In this document: piece by piece, positions 14,482-18,326 of the stretch | How positions within the stretch are numbered: position 1 is the stretch's first letter | Layout of the letters: each line of letters opens with the position of its first letter | NCBI GenBank assembly: GCA_947497475.1 | Contig: CANMGS010000001.1 | Coordinates: 1,385,747 to 1,449,746, forward strand | Direction: 5' to 3' | Origin: an uncultured Amylibacter sp. | GTDB lineage: Bacteria > Pseudomonadota > Alphaproteobacteria > Rhodobacterales > Rhodobacteraceae | Length of the DNA stretch: 64,000 nucleotides | Program-made: the position numbers and the translations under genes | Notes under the pieces: model-generated | Database searches by the model: none | Told to the model about the DNA's origin: nothing | What the model saw: the letters and a program-made list of their open reading frames with translations, nothing else

Positions 14482-15330
14482 TCAAGGTTTTTCGGTGTCA
14501 TTCGGGTTCGGGCGGACCAATCCTGCGAAGTCGAATAGACCTTGGTCCAAAAGGTGTGTCGGGCGGGCGTTCATTAGGCTTTTGAACATCACCTGACGGC
14601 GGCCTGGGCTGTTGGCTTCCCACTGGTCTAAAATCGCCTTCACCTGTTGGCGTTGCAAGCCGTCTTGAGAGCCACATAGATCACATGGAATGATCGGATA
14701 GTTCATGTCACGTGCGAACTTTTCACAGTCTTTTTCCGCCACAAATGCCAACGGGCGATAGACGAATAAATCGCCTTCGTCATTCACTAATTTGGGTGGC
14801 ATTGTTGCCAAACGACCACCGTGGAAAAGGTTCATGAAAAACGTTTCCAACATGTCGTCGCGGTGGTGCCCCAGCACCACAGCTGAACAGCCTTCTTCAC
14901 GGGCAATTCTGTAAAGGTTTCCGCGTCTTAGACGGGAACACATCGCGCAATATGTGCGACCCATCGGCACTTTTTCTTTGACGATTGAATATGTATCTTC
15001 GTATTCAATACGGTGCTCGACACCCATCTTTTCCAGAAATTTTGGCAACACCGTTGCAGGGAAATTTGGCTGACCCTGATCAAGGTTACAGGCCAATAAT
15101 TCCACAGGCAAAAGCCCGCGCCATTTCAGTTCATGCAGCACCGCCAAAAGCGTATAGCTGTCTTTGCCACCTGACAGGCACACAAGCCATTTGGCGCCGC
15201 GTTCGATCATGCCATATTGCTCGATCGCTTCGCGGGTTTGGCGCACAATACGCTTCCTAAGTTTCTTAAACTCAGTTGTGCTGGGCGCGCCTTCGAAAAG
15301 GGCGTGAATATCTGATGCGTTATCTAACAT
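14482..15330 (-). CDS. ttcA: tRNA 2-thiocytidine biosynthesis protein TtcA
   Basis: Adds sulfur to cytidine 32 of some tRNAs using ATP and an iron-sulfur cluster. Motifs: PP-loop [10 protein letters not shown], the two Cys pairs CAMC and CDLC that hold the cluster, and [20 protein letters not shown] use the ATG at 15330 (282 aa, [14 protein letters not shown]), with GGGGCG upstream; the open frame extends further to 15513 but that part runs through the repeat at 15418-15461 and is not family-like. Confidence 0.93.
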
Positions 15331-15707
15331 AGCGCCCCTATACCGCGTGATTCCCTGATTTACCAGTGAACGCTTTGTTACAGGGGCGCGCGCTGGGGTA
15401 AGGCCGCCCGAAAAGGGCTGTATGGAATGCGTATGGCAGACGTATGGAAAGCGTATGGCACGCGCAGCATTAACGAAATAGCAATTGTATGCGGTTTCTG
15501 ATGCGGATTTCATTCACATTTGGTTGTCTGACGAAGGCCACTATGATCGGGATCAGCGGATCATCGGGGGTGATGTGATTGTCATCGATCAACATCCTAA
15601 TCACATGGGGTTTGGTTTTTTCGGTTATGTAAATGGTGTGCAGACCAGTGCTGTGTGGAAATATCATCATGGGTTAATACGCCGCTCCCTTAAATCAAAT
15701 GTACAAA
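15331..15707. other. Intergenic region upstream of ttcA, no convincing gene
   Basis: This stretch holds the 11-bp iterated repeat at 15418-15461 and otherwise nothing I can assign. Open frames exist on both strands (about 15485-15775 forward, 15470-15670 reverse). Neither has a good ribosome site or a family resemblance, and the forward one runs through the hairpin at 15714-15739. The promoter of ttcA should lie here. Confidence 0.5.
15418..15461. repeat. Four tandem 11-bp repeats around GTATGG
   Basis: Four units of 11 bases, consensus NCGTATGGNAN: CTGTATGGAAT, GCGTATGGCAG, ACGTATGGAAA, GCGTATGGCAC. Read as two units it is a 22-bp near-perfect direct repeat. On the reverse strand this is CCATAC spaced at about one helical turn, located 90-130 bases upstream of the ttcA start. 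Such phasing suits a protein-binding array, but no protein can be named. Confidence 0.7.
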
Positions 15708-15901
15708 TGAAAACGGCCGTCGGTGTGATCCGACAGCCGGGGAGTTCGTTAGCCGCGCGTACACGACTGCTATGACCTTTAGGCCGAAACCCTGGACATA
15801 CGTCATAACCTCCCCGACCTATAAATCGAGGAGTATCATTTCGGTTGATACCAACCGGTACGCGTGGGGCAACGACACCCCGAGATGAGCTGTGGCTCAT
15901 C
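15708..15901 (-). ncRNA. Candidate structured small RNA with its own terminator
   Basis: A GC-rich, strongly self-complementary block in AT-rich surroundings. On the reverse strand, CGGGG (15878-15882 region) can pair with CCCCG (about 15735-15739), then come two unpaired sides of about 13 bases, then CGCGTAC/GTACGCG (15756-15762 with 15858-15864) and internal hairpins. This closing stem, bubble and apical arm recalls 6S RNA, but I could not match a 6S consensus. A perfect 10-bp hairpin at 15714-15739 followed by TTTTC looks like its terminator. Alternatives: a reverse-transcriptase-associated RNA read from the other strand, or a 77-codon reverse frame (15667-15900), which lacks a family. Confidence 0.45.
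15709..15739 (-). terminator. Hairpin terminator of the candidate small RNA
   Basis: Arms 15714-15723 and 15730-15739 pair over 10 bp (one G-T) around a 6-base loop. On the reverse strand the stem is followed by TTTTCATTTG; on the forward strand there is no T-tract, so it should end leftward transcription. Confidence 0.65.
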
Positions 15902-16009
15902 CTGCGGTTAGGATAGGGGATGTGTTCGGGCTAGGGAAGGGGGAATGTGGGGGTGTTTTTTTCAAAACATTGCTAAAGTAGTAAATATATAGATTTCAAA
16001 AGAGTATTT

Positions 16010-17644
16010 ATGAAAAAGCGTGATATAATTTTCCAGAGACTTTTAGACTATGGGTTTTATCCTAAAGAACTGCCGCCTACTTTTAATACAAAAAATTTTG
16101 GAGCTACATTAATTGCAACACCAAAGATATTAAAACCACAGAAAGGTTTTTCTGGTGAGGTGATATTTTTAGATGGGGCAACTTTTCAAGGAAATCACAG
16201 AACTTTTGGAGTAATCAATCCAATAAACTATTCAAGTCTTTCTCATTATATTTCTAAGAAGTGGACTAAGATTAATAAAGTTATGTTGTTAAGTAAGTTT
16301 TCTGCATCTCAAATATCATTTCCAAATAATGTTACAGAGCATGGGCGTTCATTTTCTAAAGTAACGTTTACTGCGAAACGTAAGAAACAAGCATATCTAT
16401 CTAGTGCGTATCCTGCTGTCGTATACTTAGATATCAATAGGTTTTATGGATCAATTTATACGCACTCATTAGCTTGGGCTGCTTTGGGCAAGACTGAAGG
16501 CTTAAAGCAACACAGTGATGGTACACTAAGCAATCATTGGAGTGCAAAACTAGATCAATTAGTGAGAGCATGTAATCGCAATCAGACAATTGGTGTGCCG
16601 ATTGGGCCTGATACATCTCGTATCGTATCTGAGCTAGTGCTTTCGAGAATTGATATTGAGTTATCAAAAGGCAAATCAAGACTAAATAAAAAACAAGTAT
16701 ATCATAGTATTGATGATTATGAAATTGGAGCTAAAGACCAAGTAGAAGCAGAAAGTATAATAGCTAAGTTTGAAAAAGAAATTAGAAATTTTGAACTGCG
16801 AAGCCATGAGGGTAAGACCAAAGTTCTTTTTGGGGCAATGCCAGATAATTTAAATTGGGAGTATAAGTTTGATAGTTTGTTAAAGCTTAAAGACAAAGCT
16901 TTTCTAAATGGGTTGTTTGGGCTTATTGAGACAGAAAGACTACGTTCACCAAATGCAAATATAGTAGGATATGCCTTAAGCCGATTTGCGAAAAAAATTG
17001 CTGGTTGCGCTGACAAATCTCTTTCTTTGCTTCATTTGCAAAGATTACTTTTTGCAGCACCAAGATTCGTAAGTTGGATTGCCCCTCTCTTTGTTGGATT
17101 GAAGGGGGGCGATAAATTAGATGAAGGACAGAAACGTGTTTTGCGCTGGGGAATAGAGGAATGTGCTAGGAGGCATGATACGGTTTCACTGCTTTGGTTC
17201 TTATACTTACATCTTTATTTTGATCTGAAAATTTCCAGTAGATTGGTCAGATTGTGCTACGAGGTTGATTCAGTGCTAGTAGACCTGACACTGGCTCACG
17301 CATTTCAGAACGCGTTACTTAAAGGAACATTTGAGGATATTAAAGGTCGATATGAAACATCTACGCTTTCTGAAAGCGCATGGCTTTTTTTATACGAAGT
17401 AGAGAAGCGAGGTTGGACGTTCGCATATTCTAAGTCGCAAATTGGTACGGCAACTGATCCAAATAAGTTTTACAAATATATTAACAAAAATGACGTTCAT
17501 TTTTATTGTGTTAAGAATTTTGGTATCTCTGCTTTCAACTGGAACCTAAACGAAAGTGATTTCGATCCATATACTTTCGATGGAGTTTATGATGAAATGG
17601 AAAGTTATCACGACGATGATATAAATGCGTCTGAAATGTATTGA
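16010..17644 (+). CDS. Reverse transcriptase, Abi/DRT-like 'unknown group' type
   Basis: A 544-aa protein with an N-terminal RT domain and an all-helical C-terminal half. RT motif A is LDINRFYGSIYTHSLAWA with the metal-binding Asp at 141; motif B is GVPIGPDTSR at 195-204; motif C is YHSIDDYEIG with Asp235-Asp236. The THSLAWA extension after motif A and the W-LYE--GW signature (456-469) resemble DRT and Abi reverse transcriptases that protect bacteria from phages; I cannot assign the subgroup. Motif C reads SIDD instead of the usual YxDD. There is no maturase, endonuclease or integrase domain, so a group II intron enzyme is unlikely. The gene is much richer in A+T than its neighbours, which suggests transfer. 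Confidence 0.85.
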   Translation: MKKRDIIFQRLLDYGFYPKELPPTFNTKNFGATLIATPKILKPQKGFSGEVIFLDGATFQGNHRTFGVINPINYSSLSHYISKKWTKINKVMLLSKFSASQISFPNNVTEHGRSFSKVTFTAKRKKQAYLSSAYPAVVYLDINRFYGSIYTHSLAWAALGKTEGLKQHSDGTLSNHWSAKLDQLVRACNRNQTIGVPIGPDTSRIVSELVLSRIDIELSKGKSRLNKKQVYHSIDDYEIGAKDQVEAESIIAKFEKEIRNFELRSHEGKTKVLFGAMPDNLNWEYKFDSLLKLKDKAFLNGLFGLIETERLRSPNANIVGYALSRFAKKIAGCADKSLSLLHLQRLLFAAPRFVSWIAPLFVGLKGGDKLDEGQKRVLRWGIEECARRHDTVSLLWFLYLHLYFDLKISSRLVRLCYEVDSVLVDLTLAHAFQNALLKGTFEDIKGRYETSTLSESAWLFLYEVEKRGWTFAYSKSQIGTATDPNKFYKYINKNDVHFYCVKNFGISAFNWNLNESDFDPYTFDGVYDEMESYHDDDINASEMY

Positions 17645-17782
17645 TCGGCGCCCGATCCGAGGGGGGGTGAAGCACCCGCCCGTGGGGGCGGATCGGGTGC
17701 TGTCCGTGCAACGCACGGACAGGGTGCGGCAAGCGCGGTGGTTTGAATGATCTTTTGGAACGCGTGGGCTGAAGCCCACCCT
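17645..17782. repeat. Cluster of GC-rich hairpins after the reverse transcriptase gene
   Basis: Three inverted repeats in a row. First, 17648-17659 with 17689-17700 (12 bp, one G-T), enclosing a smaller GGGTG/CACCC hairpin. Second, 17700-17709 with 17713-17722, a perfect 10-bp stem with a 3-base loop. Third, 17764-17770 with 17773-17779, GTGGGCT/AGCCCAC, followed by CCTACG, which resembles REP-type intergenic palindromes. No T-tract follows, so a simple terminator is not certain. The last one reaches the stop codon of the small reverse-strand gene. Confidence 0.75.
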
Positions 17783-17981
17783 ACGATAGTCTGGCTTTGT
17801 GTTGCTCGTTCAGGCGTTTTACGGCGCGATCTAGGGCTTTCATACTGTCGCCATACAGCAGCGCCTCGGGGATTGTATCGCGGGCTGTGACCTCGAATTT
17901 CGCATAGGTTTCCATCAGCTCCATGTTGTGGATCAGGCGCTGAGACATATCTTTGATCTTGGTTTGAAAATGTGGGGGCAT
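17781..17981 (-). CDS. Small hypothetical protein (66 aa)
   Basis: A short, charged, probably helical protein (MSQRLIHNMELMETYAKFEV ... MKALDRAVKRLNEQHKARLS). I do not recognise a family. It lies 120 bases downstream of yidD on the same strand, with base composition like the core genes rather than the reverse transcriptase gene. Start could also be the ATG at 17948, giving 55 aa. It reads like a real small gene (no stop for its length, balanced composition) but support is modest. Confidence 0.5.
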   Translation of the reverse strand: MPPHFQTKIKDMSQRLIHNMELMETYAKFEVTARDTIPEALLYGDSMKALDRAVKRLNEQHKARLS

Positions 17982-18104: not shown

Positions 18105-18326
18105 TCAATCGGGCACATTGTCGATGCCGCTGCCGCCCCATGGATGGCATTTTGAAATGCGGCGCATGGCGAGCCAGCCGCCTTTGATGGCACCGTGTTT
18201 TTCCAAGGCTTCTAGGGCGTAGGATGAACAGGTGGGTTGGAAACGGCAATTGGCGCCAATGAGGGGGCTGATTACTGTGCGGTAGAATTTCACAGGCAGC
18301 GAAAATATGTAGGCGAGTGGTGTCAT
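18105..18326 (-). CDS. yidD: Membrane protein insertion efficiency factor YidD
   Basis: A 73-aa protein of the YidD family: [24 protein letters not shown], then [19 protein letters not shown]. It assists YidC-dependent membrane insertion at the inner membrane face. Its start overlaps the rnpA stop as ATGA, and it follows rpmH and rnpA as in most bacteria. Here yidC itself is about 3.7 kb away rather than adjacent. Confidence 0.95.

Follow-up and report, generated by a model that had tools for sequence, protein, structure and literature searches.

The window, the whole stretch of 64,000 nucleotides from an uncultured Amylibacter sp. that was analysed, bears a reverse transcriptase (RT) gene between a ttcA-like gene on its left and a yidD-like gene on its right, the latter followed by an rnpA-like gene (Table 1). 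A structured RNA gene and a small ORF lie between the ttcA-like gene and the RT, and a GC-rich palindromic repeat follows the RT. Gene names used here (ttcA, yidD, rnpA, rplW, rplB, cmk, rpsA, ettA, fabH etc.) were assigned by eye.

Table 1. Features around the reverse transcriptase gene, in window coordinates.
Feature	Coordinates	Strand	Basis
ttcA-like left neighbour	14482..15330	-	start MLDN near 15330, where the alignment with kin begins; ORF as listed extends to 15513
Small ORF, 66 aa, just downstream of the RNA	15470..15670	-	conserved across copies, substitution pattern
Structured RNA gene, one of 5 copies in the genome	15709..15946	-	fold by strand, covariation, copies; ends predicted (5' ~15946, 3' ~15709)
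Terminator-like hairpin at the RNA 3' end	15714..15739	-	helix 8 of the family structure
Segment replaced relative to G018 (RT here, TIR-domain gene there)	15947..17671		DNA homology stops
DRT6-family reverse transcriptase, 544 aa	16010..17644	+	profiles, alignment, predicted fold
GC-rich palindromic repeat after the RT, found after cargo elsewhere too	17645..17785		comparison of copies
yidD-like right neighbour, then rnpA-like gene	18105..18326	-	ORF list, names by eye

Identity of the reverse transcriptase

The GC content is 34% at positions 16001-17000 and 40-51% in the remaining 1-kb bins of the window, which bears out the AT-richness relative to its neighbours described in a first-pass annotation of the sequence. 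The RT motifs quoted there, DINRFYGSIYTHSLAWA, GVPIGPDTSR and SIDDYEIG, are present in the 544-aa ORF. Asp141, Asp235 and Asp236, the catalytic aspartates of an active RT, are invariant in all ten sequences of a protein alignment, and within the W-LYE--GW segment, which had also been pointed out, Trp458 is invariant and Glu463 nearly so. Nine of 12 inspected DRT6-like loci went into this alignment; L004 (over-extended start), L020 (internal stop codon) and L010 (weak) were set aside, and the partial matches L011-L014 lay outside these 12. The SIDD motif, previously called unusual, is ordinary, since the first residue of YxDD varies among the DRT6 kin (S, N, N, N, A, L, Y, H, H and H across the ten sequences). 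Where codons differ by a single change between the RT and either of two kin, the change is mostly silent (ratio 0.09 and 0.07), in keeping with a functional gene. The only Pfam match of the protein is RVT_1 (27.6 bits against a cut-off of 29.6), in agreement with the reported absence of a maturase or integrase domain, and this is also the one RVT_1 match in the genome.

A profile search, as the first-pass annotation had proposed for what it took to be an Abi/DRT-like RT, gave Drt6 as the best PADLOC model (7.5e-113), aligned over residues 7-505 of the protein and positions 3-483 of the 511 in the profile. Drt4 came next (1e-78), then UG30, UG14, UG31, AbiK, Drt3b and Abi-P2; UG12 we take to be a label for DRT6. 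The top sequence match in the PDB was the DRT6 structure 9wy8 (phmmer, 2.5e-34). An AlphaFold2 model built from the ten sequences (pLDDT 80.3, pTM 0.83), with the active-site loop 146-149 and the final 23 residues poorly modelled, retrieved the same hexameric DRT6 first in Foldseek (E 1.1e-20, TM 0.78/0.86), followed by DRT4/UG15, AbiK and Abi-P2, and next by AbiA. The RT fold is thus recovered in the predicted model, which matches that of 9wy8. Group II intron, retron and DGR enzymes all score far below DRT6 in the profile and structure searches, those of group II introns, DRT9, DGRs and retrons appearing in Foldseek at E 8.5e-6 or weaker. Among NCBIfam models, which include no Drt6 match, the group II intron RT (28.1 bits, cut-off 300), retron St85 (17 bits, cut-off 235) and the Drt4 equivalog (183.2 bits, cut-off 450) were rejected. 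Judged by its profile matches and predicted fold, the gene is an intact DRT6-family reverse transcriptase. DRT6 tails are acidic (here window positions 17600-17641), and the final residue is Y or F in eight of the ten aligned sequences; a tail of this kind recalls the acidic tip of SSB proteins, or a terminal priming tyrosine.

The structured RNA and the small ORF

A structured element had been placed at 15708-15901 by the first-pass annotation. The element itself is real, but it is longer (15709-15946) and belongs to the minus strand. When folded alone, the plus strand of 15700-16009 is not special (z -1.06), and across 21 copies an RNA on the plus strand was rejected by its alifold energy (-57.5 kcal/mol, against -91.1 kcal/mol on the minus strand). 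Similarly, the ratio of G-U to A-C cells in these copies is 202:8 on the minus strand and 56:26 on the plus strand. The minus-strand family, whose structure was derived from the same 21-copy alignment that was shuffled, has 99.0% of its cells paired, two-sided changes in 27 of 62 pairs and a covariation score of 0.412, each matched by 0 of 500 shuffles; its count of further pair types was matched by 30 of 500.

A 261-nt query (15690-15950) found five strong copies in this genome, itself counted. With a covariance model of the RNA (R1), 21 places were detected in 4 of the 33 genomes of the genus, and matches in 19 of the 374 family genomes sampled (eight candidates scored per genome, own genome counted), of which two reach no better than E 6.6e-5 and 6.4e-4. 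Moreover, 20 stretches picked from IMG/VR by the core motif contained 20 R1 matches, in 19 of the 20, although two of these barely exceed the motif. The small ORF is complete in 19 of the 21 genus copies and cut by contig ends in the other two; its nonsynonymous to synonymous ratio of 0.16 (eight copies, with pairs that are not independent) makes it look coding and under purifying selection. Pfam gave no match for the window copy of the small ORF, Rfam gave chance-level matches only for the window element, and a sigma-70 promoter scan gave two sites, below the shuffle mean of 6.1.

The RNA resembles sRNA-Xcc1 (RF02221) in its core layout, by eye, and in preceding a small ORF: as with sRNA-Xcc1, the RNA directly precedes a small gene in the same orientation in 19 of the 21 genus copies. 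A mobile-element setting is a further likeness, as far as excerpts of a Xanthomonas survey go, in which sRNA-Xcc1 lies upstream of symE, a gene named for an E. coli toxin gene, and forms with it the most widespread integron cassette (PMC12444791). However, RF02221 did not match the window RNA at E up to 10, and same-strand matches at the RNA, found in 5 of 28 other loci, scored 25.6-33.3 bits, below the gathering score of 53. Of 249 phylum genomes, 49 carry RF02221 (32 above the cut-off), this genome not being among them, and R1 detects a single one of 20 true sRNA-Xcc1 loci (E 0.0014). The window's RNA type and sRNA-Xcc1 are therefore probably distant relatives, not one family.

Complementarity between the RNA and the start region of the next gene was higher for own than for swapped partners in sRNA-Xcc1 (7.69 vs. 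5.95, n = 13, 0/2000 permutations) and in the copies on phage contigs (7.13 vs. 6.09, n = 15, 0/2000 permutations). It was weak in the family set (43/2000 permutations, n = 18) and not significant for the window's RNA type (169/2000, n = 21). A test for repeats of the start region inside the RNA gave 0/5000 for sRNA-Xcc1, 18/5000 for the viral copies and no significance in the genus (1724/5000) or the family (2047/5000), and many of the strings shared between RNA and start region fall outside any ribosome-binding site. These tests covered 13 of 20 sRNA-Xcc1 loci (the other seven are shorter and the fixed offset failed), 15 of 20 viral RNA matches (the five lowest-scoring were dropped), 18 of 19 family loci (L161, which ends just past the RNA, was dropped) and all 21 genus copies.

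Stretches of 7-10 nt with complementarity to the ribosome-binding region of the following gene were seen in some phage-contig copies (L211, L199, L209, L206, L196, L192 and L193) and likewise in some true sRNA-Xcc1 loci (L214, L215, L226, L228 and L230), not in every copy of either. The ribosome-binding region is repeated on the other side of the RNA in L226, L228, L230, L192, L193 and L206, and such a pair of repeated and complementary sides suggests a strand-exchange leader.

We consider it unlikely that the RNA and the small ORF together act as a control or addiction unit, in which the RNA would repress a small, possibly toxic protein and would also regulate or stabilise cargo such as the RT. 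The above-chance complementarity in phage-contig and sRNA-Xcc1 copies, the toxin-gene name of symE and the purifying selection on the small ORF would fit such a unit, but the window's own RNA type shows no significant complementarity, no family was matched by the small ORF and nothing but position links the unit to the RT.

Replacement of DNA at the edge of the RNA

The five RNA copies of this genome (G000) correspond to all five of its nearest relative by ttcA (G018, 92%) at the same sites, and the DNA adjoining the RNA is replaced between the two genomes at each of the five. At four of the five sites the homology breaks within 8 nt of the RNA 5' end. At the ttcA site it begins ahead of ttcA, spans the small ORF and the RNA and ends at element column 257, which is window position 15946; beyond the break there is a 31-nt match at 17672, and longer homology from 17792. 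The cmk-like and ettA-like sites break at columns 255 and 265, respectively. The sequence shared at the rplW-rplB-like site is confined to columns -38 to 258, and both sides have diverged, small ORF included. At the fifth site the homology continues past the RNA, and the break is at the far end of the small ORF (-196). Because homology stops at the RNA 5' end, a promoter of the RNA would lie in replaced DNA (15947-16009).

Different genes were found beyond the break in the two genomes. The cargo at the ttcA site is the DRT6 gene in G000 and a TIR-domain gene in G018. The other three of these four sites hold, in G000 and G018, respectively, RusA-like and AHJR-like nuclease genes and a protein of membrane-bound appearance (by eye); a coiled-coil-like protein and RmrT with RmrA; and a DUF2806 protein and a UG20-type RT, which stands beside another copy of the RNA module (L093:6253-7815; PADLOC 1e-205). 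Among the eight cargo loci of these four sites, three thus have convincing PADLOC matches (DRT6, RmrTA and UG20) and a fourth bears a TIR domain, while of the remaining four, three have no PADLOC match and the coiled-coil protein has a weak one (2.6e-4). A sharp homology edge alone could come from a constrained RNA; the different genes past the edge, however, argue for replacement rather than mere drift. These results indicate RNA-bounded exchange sites in one genome pair (G000 and G018); how the exchange proceeds is inferred.

A tentative reading, which we hold to be possible but not the likelier case, is that the RNA and the small ORF serve as a dedicated landing pad. Its edges, the RNA 5' end and the 3' end of the small ORF, would take the insertion or replacement of defence genes, possibly via a mobile relative of the module, and its copies would label slots in housekeeping regions. 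The genome would then keep several such slots and swap single defence systems in them. The two neighbours at the ttcA site of G026 are 74 nt apart, the site being uninserted there. Against a strict rule of this kind, the cargo at the cmk-like site of G026 is sulfotransferase-like, and some RNA copies of G025 adjoin ordinary-looking genes only. Furthermore, the rplW-rplB site is variable even without the module, since the interval between the two genes within the ribosomal protein operon, where it lacks the RNA, ranges from 96 nt to more than 1.2 kb in nine genomes of the genus (L168-L191; 27 loci examined, of which 16 did not show both genes in the fetched stretch). The GC-rich repeat stands after the cargo in L051, L091, L092 and L088 and beside the RNA in L090 and L094, and is weak in L103. 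No right end shared by all cargo emerged, the repeat following the cargo at five of the eight right-cargo copies in G000 and G018, and its 28-nt core occurs once in the window at up to 3 mismatches. No recombinase gene beside the RNA module was noticed by eye in the ORF lists.

Distribution, expected action and known relatives

The RT gene is present in this genome alone among the 33 of the genus, save for a partial match in G032 (E 8.2e-4). The Drt6 model detected relatives in 6 of 394 family genomes and 4 of 398 phylum genomes at 1e-60, and in 11 of 385 class genomes at E 1e-20, five of these matches being weaker and partial; this genome is counted each time. The DRT6 family is rare and patchily distributed. 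A search of genome contigs and viral contigs with the RT as a query, in which records of near-identical genomes were possibly excluded, confirmed no relatives. Horizontal acquisition of the RT among housekeeping genes, as proposed earlier, is probable, given the low GC content and the absence of the gene from relatives, which mark the RT as foreign and indicate nothing beyond that.

Two kin of 63% identity follow known defence pairs: in G775 the RT lies 61 nt behind a GajA/GajB pair (L053), and in G667 it lies 40 nt behind a type III restriction-modification pair (L054). In G1020 it lies 65 nt behind an ORF that appears by eye to be a tyrosine recombinase and has no PADLOC match (L056), and in G288, where it adjoins an rpsA-like gene, the nearest upstream ORF in the list is about 260 nt away (L055). 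Together with the absence of the window's RNA type from all eight other DRT6 regions searched, these settings support, without proving, a single-gene defence enzyme that may travel among defence loci.

We find it very unlikely that the RT is a selfish or domesticated enzyme with no defence role: low GC content and absence from relatives would suit this as signs of foreign origin only, but the protein has no mobility domain in Pfam, its nearest kin by sequence and fold are defence enzymes, and two kin adjoin known defence pairs. It is even less credible that the upstream RNA serves the RT as a template or scaffold, as in DRT2, DRT3 and DRT9. Covariation backs the RNA, and 63 nt separate its 5' end from the start of the RT, but the two are encoded on opposite strands, most of the 21 RNA copies adjoin other genes, and a place as the ncRNA of the RT is opposed by the absence of the RNA from the eight DRT6 regions, its presence beside other cargo and the short upstream gaps in three of the four kin. 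A review moreover classes DRT4 and DRT6 as single-gene systems (PMC13213688). The earlier suggestion that the RT acts alone or with the upstream element therefore holds, as probable, in its first half, and the partnership is not supported.

Taken together, we regard it as quite probable that the RT is a DRT6-type single-gene defence system and that the RNA and the small ORF are an independent repeated module, which bounds the replaced segment and is no part of the enzyme. The analysis itself established the family, the fold as predicted, the catalytic residues, the purifying selection, a patchy distribution and a location where G018 bears a different gene; the action of the enzyme can be sketched by homology. 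In reviews of work on DRT4 and DRT6 (PMC13213688, PMC13314766), a hexamer, template-free DNA synthesis and activation by phage ORF55 are reported for DRT4 and partly for DRT6. There the DRT4 product is described as random single-stranded DNA, template-free and tyrosine-primed, and ORF55 as activating DRT6 as well as DRT4, the product chemistry of DRT6 being less resolved than that of DRT4. By analogy, the RT would assemble as a hexamer, prime DNA synthesis on a tyrosine and make DNA without an RNA template; upon infection, a phage DNA-binding protein would stabilise this DNA, which would turn toxic and stop the infected cell. Because identity to the solved DRT6 is only 25% in the fold alignment, trigger and product may differ.

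DRT6 is already known, and the enzyme described here is a new, divergent member, with which it can be tested whether template-free DNA synthesis and a phage trigger are common across the family. The surprising part is the RNA-bounded exchange sites, not the RT. Where genes have been replaced in housekeeping DNA, the edge is marked by a repeated RNA gene, and defence systems make up several of the genes exchanged there; the RNA copies can thus serve as a search handle for unknown defence genes beside them, and the movement of single defence genes without an obvious transposase becomes testable. Open-access searches found no literature on this RNA type or on RNA-bounded exchange of defence genes.

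Compared with known systems, the RT is like DRT6 (9wy8) in its near whole-length model match, its Foldseek fold, its catalytic aspartates and, probably, its being a single gene, but differs in its low identity and in sitting at an RNA-bounded exchange site. DRT4 (UG15) ranks second in both PADLOC and Foldseek, with a weaker model score and far under the NCBIfam Drt4 cut-off. AbiK and Abi-P2 align over the RT domain and the C-terminal half (Foldseek E 2.1e-15 to 5.8e-11), whereas identity is 15-19% and they belong to other PADLOC families. In defence hotspots and sedentary integrons, defence genes are exchanged at fixed chromosomal sites. The sites described here are similar in this respect; unlike them, the boundary here is a repeated module of an RNA and a small ORF.
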